The translations under genes were made by a program, and so were the position numbers. From positions 434,001 to 498,000 of the forward strand of contig CP069394.1 in assembly GCA_016887485.1 (NCBI GenBank): DNA of 64,000 nt, in the 5' to 3' direction. Position 1 is the stretch's first letter. Every line of letters starts with the position of its first letter. The notes under the pieces were generated by a model. That model was not told where the DNA came from, did no database searches, and saw nothing but the letters and a program-made list of their open reading frames with translations. Positions 31,543 through 37,018 of the stretch are shown in pieces. This DNA comes from Chloroflexota bacterium. GTDB lineage: Bacteria > Chloroflexota > Anaerolineae > Anaerolineales > Anaerolineaceae.

Positions 31543-31573
31543 AAAAAGGACTGCGAAAGCAGTCCTTTTTTTT
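31543..31573 (+). terminator. Terminator of tyrS
   Basis: AAAAAGGACTGC (31543-31554), loop GAAA, GCAGTCCTTTTT (31559-31570), followed by more Ts. Confidence 0.95.
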
Positions 31574-31618
31574 GTTAACCCTTTAGGGAGTTGAGGGCGG
31601 AACGCCCGAAACAGAAAA

Positions 31619-31637
31619 CCACCGGCTAAGCCGGTGG
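31619..31637 (+). repeat. Left subterminal hairpin of the IS200-type element
   Basis: Perfect 8-bp stem CCACCGGC/GCCGGTGG with loop TAA. It closely resembles the right-end hairpin and is probably bound by the transposase. Confidence 0.75.
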
Positions 31638-31658
31638 AAGCCAAAGGCTTATAGGAAA

Positions 31659-31716
31659 GAAATCACTCCGGTAGAATGGCAGATGTTCAAGCCGCCAAAC
31701 GGAAAGGAGTGATTTC
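31659..31716 (+). promoter_or_regulatory. Inverted repeat that can mask the tnpA ribosome-binding site
   Basis: GAAATCACTCC (31659-31669) is perfectly complementary to GGAGTGATTTC (31706-31716), which contains the GGAG ribosome-binding site and ends one base before the tnpA ATG. In IS200, a similar 5'-leader stem represses transposase translation. Confidence 0.75.
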
Positions 31717-31717
31717 T

Positions 31718-32167
31718 ATGGTTAAGAGTCTAGCACACACAAAATGGATGTGTAAATATCATATAGTATTTACGCCAAAATATAGAAGGAAGATTGTGTA
31801 AGCCAAGTACAAAGAGAGCATAGTGGAGATAATAAGAGATCTATGCAAATGGAAAGGTGTAGAGATCATAGAGGGGACAGCGATGATAGATCATATTCAT
31901 CTGCTCGTATCAATCCCCCCGAAGTACAGTGTATCAAGCTTCATGGGATACCTGAAAGGGAAGAGTGCTCTGATGATATTTGATCGACATGGGAATCTGA
32001 AGTACAAGTATGGGAATCGGCATTTCTGGTCGAGAGGATACTCTGTGAGCACGGTGGGGTTGAACGAAGCGACCATAGCGAAGTATGTGAGGGAGCAAGA
32101 GAAACACGACCAGATGACGGATAAGATCACAACGAAAGAAGCAGAAGACCCCTTTAGGGGTAGCTAG
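31718..32167 (+). pseudogene. tnpA: IS200-type transposase TnpA with an in-frame stop
   Basis: Read through, the 149-codon frame gives a typical Y1 (HUH) transposase: MVKSLAHTKWMCKYHIVFTP and PKYRRKIV, then a TAA stop at codon 28 (31799-31801), then AKYKESIVEIIRDLCKWKGVE and IIEGTAMIDHIHLLVSIPPK with the HUH motif as HIH, a PPKYSVSSFMGYLKGKSALM segment, YKYGNRHFWSRGYSV, and the candidate catalytic Tyr in KYVREQEKHD. Everything except the stop is intact, and a full homologue would carry Tyr or a similar residue there. So the gene was disabled recently, or is a copy mobilised in trans. AAAGGAG precedes the ATG at 31718. Confidence 0.85.
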
Positions 32168-32200
32168 GTAATCGGTGCACCAGGCTTGAACGAAGTGAAA

Positions 32201-32220
32201 GCGGCACCTTGAGGTGCCGC
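32201..32220 (+). repeat. Hairpin in the right flank of the IS200-type element
   Basis: GCGGCACC-TTGA-GGTGCCGC, a perfect 8-bp stem. A shorter one, GACCC-TTATA-GGGTC, follows at 32229-32243. Confidence 0.7.
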
Positions 32221-32245
32221 AAGTAAAAGACCCTTATAGGGTCAG

Positions 32246-32277
32246 GTCAAGCCACCCGCTATGCGGGTGGTCTTGAC
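32246..32277 (+). repeat. Right subterminal hairpin of the IS200-type element
   Basis: GTCAAG at 32246-32251 pairs with CTTGAC at 32272-32277, and CCACCCGC with GCGGGTGG inside, loop TAT, one unpaired T. Its last base is the first of the stop codon of the convergent SEDS-PBP gene. Confidence 0.75.
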
Positions 32278-34916
32278 TAGTTACTGGTTGAAAGGTTCAT
32301 GGCCTGGTTTAAGAGGGTCAGACCAATCTGTGTAGCCTGGTTCGGATTTTTGGCTTCCAGGGCCACCACGATCACATAGGGTTGCCCCTGCCAGTTGGGT
32401 GTGGAGCCTGCGACAAACCAGGTGATTGGGTCGCCTTCGTCGGTCTCCGTGCTGGAGACTGTTTGCCATTGCAAAGCGGTCTCGTTTTCGAGTAATGTTG
32501 TTAAGCTTTCCACTTGTGAAGAAGTGAAGGCTGTACTGGCCGATCCCAGTTTCGGCAGGGTTACCCAGGCTGCGTTTTCATCCTCATAACCGTTGACAAT
32601 CCGAGGTGCTGTCAAGACGCCATCATTGGATAGGGCGCTGGCTGCAATTGCCAACTGCAATGGGCTGATGCTCAGGTCTTGCCCGGTGAAGAATTCCCAA
32701 TCGTCGGTTATTCCGGTTTGGGCGGCTTCTGCAACCGTTAGGCGAAGATCAGGGCTGGTGTAGTATCCCAGATTTTGAATGAGATCCGATACCGGGGCCA
32801 GGCCAATATAGCTGGCTAGATCAGCCTGGGCGTTCACGCACCCGTATTGTACAATCGAAGCCCAGTCCAGGGTTTCCGGTGCTGTTGCGCAACCTGGACC
32901 AGCGGAGAGACTGGAGAGGATTGTTTCCGGCCGGGTGAATGTATTCAGAAGGTTGATTTGGTCAGCCAGCAGGAAGGGGAACAGCGTGCCGCCGATGGGG
33001 TAGGCACCCTGGGTCACCCGGTTGACCAGCGGTCCATTTTCTTCATCGCTGAAGGAGGCCCAATCTTCCGCCAGGGTATCGAGGTTGAAATAGGGGTGGG
33101 AGGCCATTGTCAGGATTTCACCGGTCTCCGCGTTCATCAGGATTACTGCACCATGTTCATCTCCTAGAAGGTCATCTGCCACACGCTGAAGGCTCAGATC
33201 CAGGGTTAGGCGGACATTCAAGCCCTCCGGTGGCTGGTTGTTGACCCACTCCATGAGCGCATCTTTCAGGCTGCGTTCGCTGGTTAGACCGCGTAAATAG
33301 GAATACATGGAGGCTTCAATGCCGGTTTGCCCATAGATGGAGCTGGTATAGCCGACAACGGAAGAGAGCGCAGGGTAAGTGGCGGTCCGGCTGATATCAC
33401 CGATCTCACCGATGCTGGTGATGATGACCTGGCCATTGCGATCCACAATATTGCCCAATGGGACAAACCGATCCGCAACCGCCCAGCGGGGGTTCTCAGG
33501 CCGCTCAACCAGAGGGGCTTTAAACCAGAAGCCATAGAAGGTTGTTACGGTGAATTCGACGATCAGCAGACCGACCAGGACGATGGTTGACCAGTTGATT
33601 CTGCGGCTCTGCGGCGTTGATTGCAGGACTGTGTGTTCTTCGGGAATTTGATTGATGGTAATCAGAATGCCCAGGGCGATAAACGAGATCAGCAGGGAGG
33701 ACCCGCCATACGAAATAAAGGGTAGGGTGACCCCGGTGAGGGGGAGCAGGCCAACATTGCCACCGATGATCAATATGCTCTGGAAACCGAAATAATACGC
33801 TATCCCAATTGCCAAATGGCGGTTGAAAAGATCGCTGGATTGGTTGGCCCTTTTTATGGCTCGATAGATCAATAGACTGATCAGTCCAACAACGACTGCC
33901 AATCCAGCCAGGCCCAGTTCTTCACCAAGCGCAGCATAAATGAAATCAGAAATGGCAACTGGGATCAAGCCCGGGCTGCCCATTCCTAAACCTGCCCCCA
34001 GGGTGCCTCCGGAGGCAATCCCGATCATCGATTGGATGATCTGATAAGAAGTGCCGGTGGGATCGGAGAAGGGGTGCAGCCAGGTATAGAGTCGAACATG
34101 GACGATATCAATGAAGAAATAGCCAACCACACCGGCTGCGATCAACGCTAAGGGTGTGGTCCAAAGGATCCAGCGGCTGCCGTTGATCGAATATAGCATC
34201 AGCAGATAGATGGCCATGAAGATGATCGCGGTGCCCAGGTCACGCTGGGTGACCAATAACACCAGGGCCAGCCCAATGACAAATAAGGTTGGCAGGACAG
34301 GCGCCAGGGTGTTTTTCTTCAGGATCAGCCGATCGGTGAAGAAACCCGAGAGATAGATGACCATCAGGAGCTTGAGCGGTTCGGAAGGCTGGAAATAGAA
34401 GCCAAAAACGTTCAGCCACAAAGCCGGGCCAAAACCGGTTGGGTTTTCACCGAAGATGATCGTCAGGGCAACCAGGACCAGACCCAATACCAGCCAAATA
34501 TATTTATATTTTTTGAGGATCGTCAGGAATTGAGGGAATTGGAAACCCAGAAAAACAATCCCACCGGAAAGGATCAGCCAGACGGTTTGGCGCAGGCCCA
34601 TATTGGGAAAAAGCCGCCAGACCATCATCAGGCCAATACCCGTCAGTGCTGCCACAATTGGCAGCAGGTAGGGATCACGGTGGGGGAGCTTCCGGCTGGA
34701 TTGCCAATTCAGGGCGGCAAACACAGAAAACCAGCCCAACACGCCTAACCAGTGCGTCCAGCGGTAATCCTCACTGGTGCTGTGATAGCGGACGGCAGTG
34801 CTGATGGTCAGAGTCGCCGCCAGAGCGAGGACCAATAAGGCCGCGATGATCAGCAGGCGGCTTTGCAGTCGGTCCGTCCTGGAATCCTGCTCACGAATAG
34901 GGAAAAAGCGATACAC
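32277..34916 (-). CDS. SEDS glycosyltransferase fused to a degenerate penicillin-binding domain
   Basis: The 879-residue protein joins two normally separate cell-wall partners. Residues 1-425 are a SEDS (FtsW/RodA/SpoVE) polymerase with about ten helices, QPSE at 176-179, the proposed catalytic Asp at 324 in ISDFIYAALGEELG, and ISYGGSSLL at 401-409. After a linker and one more helix (about 443-462), residues 470-879 follow the class B PBP plan (pedestal, then transpeptidase). All three active-site motifs are lost: the SxxK nucleophile is G643-T-L-F646 within YPIGGTLFPF, SxN is G692-C-V694, and KTG is S838-T-P840. The SEDS half looks active, the transpeptidase half cannot acylate. Start 34916 follows the mtnP stop by two bases. 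The IS200 right end touches the stop codon. Confidence 0.9.
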   Translation of the reverse strand: MYRFFPIREQDSRTDRLQSRLLIIAALLVLALAATLTISTAVRYHSTSEDYRWTHWLGVLGWFSVFAALNWQSSRKLPHRDPYLLPIVAALTGIGLMMVWRLFPNMGLRQTVWLILSGGIVFLGFQFPQFLTILKKYKYIWLVLGLVLVALTIIFGENPTGFGPALWLNVFGFYFQPSEPLKLLMVIYLSGFFTDRLILKKNTLAPVLPTLFVIGLALVLLVTQRDLGTAIIFMAIYLLMLYSINGSRWILWTTPLALIAAGVVGYFFIDIVHVRLYTWLHPFSDPTGTSYQIIQSMIGIASGGTLGAGLGMGSPGLIPVAISDFIYAALGEELGLAGLAVVVGLISLLIYRAIKRANQSSDLFNRHLAIGIAYYFGFQSILIIGGNVGLLPLTGVTLPFISYGGSSLLISFIALGILITINQIPEEHTVLQSTPQSRRINWSTIVLVGLLIVEFTVTTFYGFWFKAPLVERPENPRWAVADRFVPLGNIVDRNGQVIITSIGEIGDISRTATYPALSSVVGYTSSIYGQTGIEASMYSYLRGLTSERSLKDALMEWVNNQPPEGLNVRLTLDLSLQRVADDLLGDEHGAVILMNAETGEILTMASHPYFNLDTLAEDWASFSDEENGPLVNRVTQGAYPIGGTLFPFLLADQINLLNTFTRPETILSSLSAGPGCATAPETLDWASIVQYGCVNAQADLASYIGLAPVSDLIQNLGYYTSPDLRLTVAEAAQTGITDDWEFFTGQDLSISPLQLAIAASALSNDGVLTAPRIVNGYEDENAAWVTLPKLGSASTAFTSSQVESLTTLLENETALQWQTVSSTETDEGDPITWFVAGSTPNWQGQPYVIVVALEAKNPNQATQIGLTLLNQAMNLSTSN

Positions 34917-34918
34917 GG

Positions 34919-35785
34919 TTATGCCAGGTACTTCCTGACCAGCAGATCCACCTCTTCACGCTTTTGGGGATCAATGGCTTTCGGATCGGTGGTAAGGGCA
35001 CTGCCCAGCGCGTTTTCACATTCGCAGCTGGCCTCAGGATCGATCATATCCACCATTGTGCGGATGGTCTCCTGGGCCAGTTTAACGTTCTTGGAAAGGG
35101 TCTTAATCAGCATTTCCACTGTTACAGGAGCTTCATTGGCATGCCAGACGTCATAATCGGTGACATGGGCCATAGTGGTATAGCATATTTCTGCCTCACG
35201 GGCCAGGAAGACCTCTGGTGAGGCGGTCATGCCGATGATGTCCAGACCCCACTGGCGGTACACTCGGGATTCACCCTTGGTGGAAAAGCGAGGCCCTTCA
35301 ATCGTGATATAGGTGCCGCCCCGGTGATATGGGGCATTTTGGGTTTTGACAGACTCTTCAAGGATGTCCGAAAGTGACTCGCAGAAAGGTTCTGCCACAC
35401 TGACGTGCGCCACAAGTCCCTTGCCAAAGAAACTGCGATCTCGTTTATGGGTGAAATCAAAGATCTGGTCGGGAATGACGATATGGCCGGGTGCATAGGC
35501 TTCACGCAGAGAGCCGCAAGCACTCACGCTGACGATCCGTCTCACCCCTAAGGACTTCAGAGCGTAGATATTGGCCCGATAAGGTACATCCGAGGGAGAT
35601 AAGGTATGGCCAAGCCCATGCCGGGCCAGGAACGCAACCTTTTTACCGTTGAGCCGCCCGGTGATGATAGGGGAGCTTGGATCACCAAAGGGTGTGGAGA
35701 TTTTAAGGGTCTCGATGTCAGTGATGTCATCGAATTCGTATAGTCCAGTGCCGCCAATTACGGCCAGTACAGGGGTTTCGTTCAT
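34919..35785 (-). CDS. mtnP: S-methyl-5'-thioadenosine phosphorylase (PNP/MTAP family)
   Basis: The enzyme splits methylthioadenosine with phosphate in methionine salvage and polyamine by-product recycling. The 288-residue protein has the MTAP marks: VIGGTGLYEF near the N-terminus, FLARHGLGHTLSPSDVPYRANIYAL, VSVSACGSLREAYAPGHIVIPDQ, TYITIEGPRFSTKGESRVYR, and IIGMTASPEVFLAREAEICY with the base-contact residues. The N-terminal ATG 35785 has GGAG six bases upstream. Its position between an FHA gene and the SEDS gene is unusual: in Actinobacteria that slot holds the phosphatase PstP. Its product seems unrelated to the wall. Confidence 0.88.
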   Translation of the reverse strand: MNETPVLAVIGGTGLYEFDDITDIETLKISTPFGDPSSPIITGRLNGKKVAFLARHGLGHTLSPSDVPYRANIYALKSLGVRRIVSVSACGSLREAYAPGHIVIPDQIFDFTHKRDRSFFGKGLVAHVSVAEPFCESLSDILEESVKTQNAPYHRGGTYITIEGPRFSTKGESRVYRQWGLDIIGMTASPEVFLAREAEICYTTMAHVTDYDVWHANEAPVTVEMLIKTLSKNVKLAQETIRTMVDMIDPEASCECENALGSALTTDPKAIDPQKREEVDLLVRKYLA

Positions 35786-35807
35786 GGGATACTCCAATAT
35801 TTCAATC

Positions 35808-36230
35808 TCAATTAAGGTTGACGGTAACTTTTACTTGTCCGAGTTGTAATTCGTCGCCATCCGTCAGGATGACAGGGGACAGCAGCGGGTCGCCGTTCAG
35901 ATAGGACCCATTGGTGGATTCGAGGTCTTCGGCCCACCAATGTTGATTACGATAGAATAATTTCAGATGCCGGAGTGACACCGTGCTGTCCTCAAGGTGG
36001 CAGACATTGGCCGGGTCACGGCCGATGATGATTTCCGGTTGAGCGTATTGCTTTGGTTCGACCAGGTCTTCTCCGAGTGGGATCAGGGTGATGGGGGCGA
36101 TAAACGCTTTACCATCCTTTTCGGTGGATTTCCGAAGGTCCATAAAAATGGTATATCCGATCCATCCGATGAAAAGATAGAGCAATAACAGAACAAGCAG
36201 ACGAAGGATGAAGAGTAGCAATGAGTTCAT
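35808..36230 (-). CDS. FHA domain protein with N-terminal membrane helix (FhaB-like)
   Basis: The 140-residue protein has one hydrophobic helix (about 3-28) and a C-terminal FHA domain (about 65-140), which binds phosphothreonine. Visible marks: IIGRDPANVCHLEDSTVSLRH (GR and S-x-R-H), then LESTNGSYLNGDPL with the conserved N-G near the end. Actinobacterial FhaB has the same plan and localises phosphorylated partners to the septum and wall. The start overlaps the preceding FHA gene by four bases (ATGA), so the two FHA genes are translationally coupled. Confidence 0.9.
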   Translation of the reverse strand: MNSLLLFILRLLVLLLLYLFIGWIGYTIFMDLRKSTEKDGKAFIAPITLIPLGEDLVEPKQYAQPEIIIGRDPANVCHLEDSTVSLRHLKLFYRNQHWWAEDLESTNGSYLNGDPLLSPVILTDGDELQLGQVKVTVNLN

Positions 36231-37018
36231 TCGTGATTATCTCCAAACGGGGGATCCTCTGGCTCGATCAGGACAGCGGTGGTGGCCTGCTCTGAGGTGA
36301 CATCCTGGATGTAGATGAGATTGACCATCCCGATTTTTAGGACATCGCCAGGGCGCAGGGTGGCCTGGGAGACTTTTTTCCCGTTGAGCAGGATGCCGCC
36401 AGTGGAACCCACATCAAACACCACATAGTGTTTGTTGATGGCTCTGATCTGAGCGTGATGACGAGAAACATAGAGATCATCAAGCACCAGGTCATTATCA
36501 GAGTGACGCCCGATGTTGATGATGGGGGTCAGCAAGGGGAAATTGGACCGGCCGCCAATTACCAGAAAGGCGTTTCCCGGCAGGGGTGTTGTGGAGGCAG
36601 CCAGAAATGGCTGCTCCATAGCCGCAGTATCAGGCAAATTCGTCACCTCTGAGGAAAAGCTGGCCTGAATGGTGATGGCGGTCTGCTGACTATTGGGAAC
36701 GCCTTGTAACTGAATTTGAGGCTCTGTGAGGAATTGGAAGTCATCCATCCGCCCCAGGGATTGCAATTTGGCGGTAATTTGGCCCAGAATGTCCTGTTGA
36801 TTCTCCCAGGCAGAGATCTGCCCCTCTGGGATCAGGAAGGTATAGCGGTCAGGCGCGTAGACGGTCCCTTTGTGATTCTCGATGAGGTTGGCTTGAATGA
36901 CCTGAGAAAGCTGTTCAATGATGTTGAACTGGCTGCCCTCACTGTTCGTGAGTTTATAAAGGCCGTCTTCGAACAAGGCGCGTAAATGTGCTTCAATTAA
37001 ATCTAAATTCAGTTTCAT
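36227..37018 (-). CDS. DUF3662/FHA domain protein (FhaA-like)
   Basis: The 263-residue protein begins with the FhaA N-terminal domain (DUF3662; residues 1-110: LIEAHLRALFEDGLYK, then YAPDRYTFLIPE) and ends with an FHA domain (about 155-240: VIGGRSNFPLLTPIINIGRH, then DLVLDDLYVSRHHAQIRA and GGILLNGKKV). In Mycobacterium FhaA binds the peptidoglycan regulator CwsA and MviN. Here, as in Actinobacteria, it is followed by FhaB and then, after mtnP, by the SEDS-PBP gene. No Ser/Thr kinase is found in the window. It starts the operon; the upstream gene is on the same strand but 120 bases away. Confidence 0.88.
   Translation of the reverse strand: MKLNLDLIEAHLRALFEDGLYKLTNSEGSQFNIIEQLSQVIQANLIENHKGTVYAPDRYTFLIPEGQISAWENQQDILGQITAKLQSLGRMDDFQFLTEPQIQLQGVPNSQQTAITIQASFSSEVTNLPDTAAMEQPFLAASTTPLPGNAFLVIGGRSNFPLLTPIINIGRHSDNDLVLDDLYVSRHHAQIRAINKHYVVFDVGSTGGILLNGKKVSQATLRPGDVLKIGMVNLIYIQDVTSEQATTAVLIEPEDPPFGDNHE

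Follow-up and report, generated by a model that had tools for sequence, protein, structure and literature searches.

In the current view, SEDS polymerases work under licence from a cross-linking partner, an arrangement that would prevent the formation of uncrosslinked glycan, which is toxic in Escherichia coli. A gene of a Chloroflexota bacterium of the family Anaerolineaceae raises the question of what such a polymerase does with a partner that is no longer a cross-linking enzyme. The gene lies in a stretch of 64,000 nucleotides (positions 434,001 to 498,000 of contig CP069394.1, assembly GCA_016887485.1; hereafter the window), where it occupies 32277..34916 (-) as a single open frame with a GTG start. 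Its product of 879 residues joins a SEDS domain to a class B penicillin-binding protein (PBP) of the PbpA type, in which alignment finds all transpeptidase motifs lost. Partners of this kind recur in many genera of Chloroflexota, and purifying selection acts on the dead domain.

Profile scans and a structural model define the layout of the protein. The Pfam SEDS family FTSW_RODA_SPOVE (PF01098) covers residues 107-423 (33648..34598 (-)) with 227 bits against a cut-off of 26.4, and the canonical NCBIfam equivalogs fail their cut-offs (ftsW, 231.2 vs 337.5 bits; rodA_shape, 204.2 vs 336.7 bits). In the model the last SEDS helix (residues 405-421) is followed by a loop (422-434), by a long helix at residues 435-464 (33525..33614 (-)) and then by the extracellular domains. 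We take the long helix to be the membrane helix that class B PBPs customarily have, which would make the junction of the two halves topologically natural. The extracellular part begins with a PBP_dimer_2 domain, or pedestal (PF21922; residues 488-568, 33213..33455 (-)), at 30 bits, above its cut-off, and ends with the pseudo-transpeptidase domain (residues 586-879, 32280..33161 (-)), of which residues 589-814 still match the Pfam Transpeptidase family (PF00905) at 59 bits, also above cut-off.

Every catalytic motif is absent from the aligned PBP half. The column of SxxK reads G643-T-L-F646 and that of SxN reads G692-C-V694, both as given in a preliminary description of the locus; that description had placed KTG at S838-T-P840, which proved to be wrong, since this site is past the WFVAG strand, the counterpart in the alignment of the AWFxG strand found after KTG in intact enzymes. 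The true column is T819-V820-S821, and the claim that all three motifs are lost stands despite this correction. A string search of residues 586-879 found no S..K, no S.N and no [KH][TS]G, and the domain contains only two lysines (789 and 856), so that an SxxK relocated within it, the observation that would have told against a dead enzyme, is ruled out.

The polymerase site, by comparison of the aligned residues, is intact. D324, the catalytic Asp, and QPSE 176-179 are kept, as had been proposed; in a phmmer alignment with the E. coli RodA chain 8tj3_B, residues being counted by hand, D324 pairs with Asp262, and its counterpart in FtsW is D297. Asp262 of E. coli RodA is proposed as catalytic in PMC10449877. 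Across 159 loci compared (see below), the window included, D324, E179, Q176, R275, Q292, G404 and G405 are invariant, P177 is kept in 157, and S178 is kept in 99 of 102 loci with a dead partner vs 26 of 57 with an intact one.

The predicted structure indicates that the PBP half keeps both its fold and its pedestal. A full-length AlphaFold2 model, whose input alignment comprised 45 fused proteins including that of the window and one intact relative (L120), reached a pLDDT of 90.3 and a pTM of 0.86. The best structural match of the PBP half was a PBP of Atopobium parvulum (4r0q_A; Z 40.3, root-mean-square deviation (rmsd) 2.6 over 363 residues), and Mycobacterium tuberculosis PbpA was matched comparably (3lo7_A; Z 39.7, rmsd 2.7, 371 residues). 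These Z scores of about 40 to PbpA structures, together with the model, bear out the first reading of the domain as a decayed enzyme and not an unrelated one. The SEDS half matched Pseudomonas aeruginosa FtsW (8bh1_A; Z 36.7, rmsd 2.5, 30% identity over 328 residues). Several families lack the SxN lobe, and the model of one relative without it, L043, reached a pLDDT of 89.6 and matched M. tuberculosis PbpA (3upp_A) with Z 38.4 and rmsd 2.7 over 336 residues.

A survey of relatives places the window protein in a large group. Searched with the protein at E <= 1e-40, 119 of the 249 class genomes and 259 of the 400 phylum genomes gave matches, many of them to the SEDS part only. We compared 181 loci: 100 picked from the class and phylum matches by rank and spread, the best 80 loci of another scan, and the window. 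In the 159 kept, a SEDS domain is accompanied by a PBP of sufficient length for alignment; the 22 dropped comprise 20 SEDS loci for which no PBP was found in the fetched stretch (ten from each of the two sets, some ending at contig ends), L153 with a short SEDS domain and L173 with a short PBP. A third SEDS gene for which no PBP was found in the fetched stretch occurs in some Chloroflexota, at L123, L124, L150, L151, L188 and L220, with records titled Roseiflexus and Oscillochloris among them; L123, L124, L150 and L151 do not end at contig ends.

Loci were called dead or intact on the S and K of SxxK, without use of SxN or KTG, which gave 102 dead and 57 intact loci. The lysine of SxxK is thus kept in none of the dead and all 57 of the intact loci. 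SxN is present in 0 of the 102 dead loci, 39-40 of which have a gap there, and in all 57 intact loci; the lysine of KTG is present in one dead locus (L090; 4 others have gaps) and in 55 of the intact loci, the other two having gaps. Of the gaps in dead loci a few are contig ends. Because the losses of SxxK and SxN recur in all 102 dead loci, they are more than chance, and the transpeptidase domain itself is still present in every one of these loci. The dead domains that retain the SxN loop carry a signature of their own: all 63 keep the Cys, 49 of them have Pro in place of the Asn, and x-P-F often comes next; the window protein has the Cys, with Val instead of Asn. Gln or Glu replaces the SxxK lysine in 41 of the 102 dead loci.

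All dead loci belong to Chloroflexota, by record or by kinship. Among the 69 kept loci of the best-80 scan, 38 of 38 outside the phylum are intact, and those within it comprise 26 dead and 5 intact; in the other set (the window with the class and phylum loci), 75 of the 76 dead loci come from the window's class or nearer by kinship labels, and the remaining one, L118, from the same phylum. The complete genome of Leptolinea sp. HRD-7 (L155) is among the dead, and the carriers of dead loci include the single-contig genomes G026, G199, G214 and G217. One dead locus, L090 (genome G005), deserves separate mention: its relative L094 (G072), of the same genus, has an intact PbpA, and in L090 the cleft is replaced by a low-complexity stretch rich in Glu, Leu and Gly. 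L090 may be an artefact or a very recent loss; as a clean recent loss it is doubtful because of that stretch, and it is still counted among the 102.

Fusion and loss of catalysis are separable. The 159 loci divide into 72 fused dead, 30 split dead, 53 split intact and 4 fused intact (L120, L176, L181 and L206); when L167, L177 and L178, which duplicate other loci, are set aside, 156 remain, namely 71, 29, 52 and 4. 'Split' was called from open frames, and a few such loci may be frameshifted fusions (in L138 the PBP lies in two frames). The preliminary description had made the covalent fusion the defining trait of the class, which does not hold, since separate genes encode 30 of the 102 dead partners, while fusion is seen in 4 of the 57 intact ones; its question whether all fused homologues lack the motifs is answered by these four, which are intact. 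With both mixed combinations in existence, fusion is also rejected as the cause of motif loss.

The history of the group was followed in SEDS-domain trees built from the window and the loci of the class and phylum search, the best-80 set not being included. The third SEDS proteins stand apart from 12 rows of canonical RodA and FtsW, taken from six genomes that belong to the order of the window, on a branch valued at 99 in a quick tree in which long branches meet. On a quick tree with 32 open forks, the dead or intact state changes three times (twice without L090) and the fused or split state nine times. In a one-clade test that omitted L090 and L118, the latter sitting among intact rows inside a set valued at 99, the tree that held the 74 dead rows together scored a log-likelihood 11.87 above the free search (p-AU 0.69) and was not rejected, although the clade is not thereby proven. 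The simplest account is one ancient loss in the class, a separate loss in L118, and repeated fusion or fission.

The dead PBP half is under purifying selection, and its pedestal shows no relaxation. In the 30 closest fused pairs listed, the ratio of nonsynonymous to synonymous substitution (dN/dS) was 0.06-0.39 in the dead transpeptidase domain and 0.07-0.26 in the SEDS domain, with several pairs near dS saturation. At a SEDS identity of 0.40-0.50, the pedestal and transpeptidase identities of intact pairs were 0.319 and 0.384 (810 pairs) and those of dead pairs 0.364 and 0.289 (3126 pairs), these pairs being non-independent and drawn from sets of unlike breadth; the three remaining bins of SEDS identity showed the contrast in the same direction. 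A conserved pedestal beside a less conserved transpeptidase domain is thus found throughout the bins, which supports the kept pedestal of the preliminary description. Since the transpeptidase domain is less conserved than the pedestal in dead pairs, the reverse holds in intact pairs and dN/dS is low, the domain has been freed from catalysis and not from all constraint.

The genes upstream of the fusion gene bear on its affinities. Two bases away lies a PNP_UDP_1 phosphorylase gene (34919..35797 (-)), which we take to be MTAP-like, followed by two genes for FHA-domain proteins, one FhaB-like by position (35808..36230 (-)) and one FhaA-like (36227..37018 (-)), which overlap by 4 bases. Their Pfam FHA domains score 62.6 and 66.5 bits, above cut-off, and FhaA_N, at 24.7 bits, falls just under its cut-off of 25.0. 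In the window the phosphorylase gene thus separates the SEDS gene from the FHA genes; the order in the mycobacterial cluster is fhaA-fhaB-pstP-rodA-pbpA. In the window and the class and phylum set, where many stretches end at contig ends, FHA-type neighbours were found beside 34 of the 76 dead loci and 8 of the 14 intact ones, and a phosphorylase neighbour beside 50 and 5 of them respectively. At its 3' end the fusion gene is abutted by an IS200/IS605-like element at 31560-32276, whose transposase frame (about 31718-32167) is interrupted by TAA at 31799-31801; a copy 99% identical lies at G000:C1:2526510-2527211.

The rest of the genome offers candidate enzymes for cross-linking. The window genome has three SEDS genes, the fusion gene being the third, and six transpeptidase matches, of which the five besides the fusion gene keep SxxK and KTG, with SxN as the third motif in four and S-C-D in L004. 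From size, adjoining SEDS genes and sequence features we take L001 to be FtsI, L004 to be PBP2, L002 and L003 to be MecA-like PBPs and L005 to be a class A PBP. Further class B PBPs with intact motifs, which the preliminary description had proposed to look for, are present. Six YkuD matches were also found. Among the 16 genomes compared, 15 carry the gene and 14 have three SEDS genes; in G217 (85% complete) the dead pair is accompanied by a single further SEDS gene. SxxK-like and KTG-like strings occur in 32 of 33 transpeptidase loci, L243 of genome G239 not being matched. In G239 the YkuD matches number three, vs 6, 6, 6 and 7 in four other genomes of its family searched.

Taken together, these results suggest that the protein is probably, though far from certainly, a SEDS polymerase with a built-in class B PBP that serves as a non-catalytic activator and gate, the cross-linking being done by others. 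That the protein polymerises glycan, that its dead domain activates it and that the cross-links are made by a different protein are all inferred. According to PMC10257715, polymerisation in the RodA-PBP2 complex is activated through one interface and restrained through a second, and it is the motion of PBP2, not transpeptidase chemistry, that controls RodA. By analogy with interfaces I and II of that complex, the pedestal would still turn the SEDS domain on and the dead transpeptidase domain would act as a movable gate; the glycan would be cross-linked in trans by other PBPs or by L,D-transpeptidases of the same cell, and the adjoining FHA proteins, judging from synteny, probably link the synthase to kinase signalling. 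For Anaerolineae as a whole, we put at about even chances the broader proposal that the class as a whole has a SEDS synthase of ancient origin whose class B PBP serves permanently as a gate without catalysis, that this partner does not itself cross-link the glycan product, and that the step is insensitive to beta-lactams.

Several points weigh against this proposal. According to PMC6207328, when RodA of E. coli works while PBP2 is blocked, its strands stay uncrosslinked and are broken down in a toxic futile cycle, so that a partner dead for good would call for some special arrangement. The transpeptidase domain is retained in 102 of 102 dead loci, although an activator consisting of the pedestal only would not need it. 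G239, a single-contig genome of a sister genus, has two SEDS genes and lacks the third, so the gene is dispensable in some members. The domain-rate comparison, finally, carries the limits given with it: its pairs are not independent, its sets differ in breadth and several dN/dS pairs approach saturation.

Of the alternatives, the one that survives best, though we regard it as unlikely, is that the SEDS half makes a purposely uncrosslinked glycan, a secondary or released polymer, which is never cross-linked in trans. The catalytic set is kept in none of the dead loci while the polymerase site is untouched, and 14 of the 15 gene-carrying genomes have two further SEDS genes, so that this one need not build the main wall; however, the SEDS residues checked are identical to those of intact relatives, no glycan-export or glycan-modification family appears in the five scanned genes of the window, and G217 has only one other SEDS gene besides its dead pair. 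Slightly less likely again is slow erosion, in which the SEDS half alone matters and the transpeptidase domain is a passive remnant lost piecemeal. Transpeptidase identity below that of the pedestal in dead lineages and the disappearance of the SxN lobe from several families fit this account, but the dN/dS of 0.06-0.39 in dead domains, the complete and high-confidence fold (pLDDT 90.3) and the presence of the domain in all 102 dead loci do not. We consider it improbable that the old active site has become a ligand-binding sensor pocket, for instance for a stem peptide, reporting to the polymerase or to FHA/kinase signalling: new residues do recur (Pro for the Asn of SxN in 49 of 63, Cys in 63 of 63, Gln or Glu for the SxxK lysine in 41 of 102) and FHA-domain genes adjoin, but the SxN loop position is a gap in 39 of 102 dead loci, the transpeptidase half is the least conserved part of the dead proteins, and the window protein, with G643, F646 and V694, is without the Gln/Pro signature. 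A sequencing error, frameshift or strain-specific pseudogene, of which the low-complexity cleft of L090 may be a case, is very hard to credit, and for the window the class-wide pattern refutes it: the window gene is one open frame, and the 102 dead loci, spread over many genera and found in single-contig genomes too, mark a lineage-wide class, as had been suggested.

If the protein is indeed a polymerase with a non-catalytic activator and gate, a polymerase widely kept with a conserved dead partner in one bacterial class would break the licensing rule in nature. The natural separation of class B PBP activation from its chemistry would also provide a ready-made system for the study of SEDS activation by such partners, and it points to a step of cell-wall synthesis beyond the direct reach of beta-lactams.

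Comparison with known systems shows which features are new. Natural SEDS-PBP fusions are already known, their existence being stated in PMC10449877, so that fusion as such is not new. The fusion of Coriobacteriia (A. parvulum PDB 4jbf, 4r0q and others) supplies the best structural match of the PBP half, and the numbering of the Atopobium chains (523-950) suggests an N-terminal part of SEDS size, so that the crystallised domain presumably belongs to a longer protein of this fused type. The Coriobacteriia loci L176 and L206 are, like the window gene, single-frame fusions of SEDS then PBP; unlike it they have intact SxxK, SxN and KTG, L181 being fused and intact too, and the Atopobium domain was solved in complex with beta-lactams, as the structure titles state. 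Searches of the openly accessible literature turned up no account of a SEDS protein whose PBP partner is catalytically dead, and with most subscription papers outside that coverage this is weak evidence of absence.

In M. tuberculosis, RodA and PbpA are encoded by separate genes. The window gene resembles that system in the fold of PbpA (PDB 3lo7, 3un7), in PBP_dimer_2, described in Pfam as the PbpA dimerisation domain, and in its FHA-gene neighbours, and differs in the inserted phosphorylase gene and the dead transpeptidase domain, whereas PbpA has beta-lactam acyl-enzyme structures (by their titles). P. aeruginosa FtsW, a separate chain paired with catalytic FtsI, shares the SEDS fold as seen in the FtsWIQBL complex (8bh1_A). 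RodA-PBP2 of E. coli and Thermus thermophilus, for which PMC10257715 and PMC6207328 describe allosteric control by the class B PBP, shares the SEDS sequence match and the catalytic Asp and differs in that PBP2 is catalytic and that the window SEDS lies outside the canonical clade. The window gene resembles the FHA-linked RodA-PbpA group in its two upstream FHA genes and in a SEDS protein outside the canonical RodA and FtsW clades. The best explanation is a third SEDS-type peptidoglycan polymerase that is akin to the RodA-PbpA pair linked to FHA genes in Actinomycetota and Bacillota, and whose PBP partner has turned into a pseudo-transpeptidase; since the motifs of a transpeptidase are absent while the fold, the pedestal, the SEDS site and the operon features agree, we regard it as a variant of the SEDS-class B PBP synthase.

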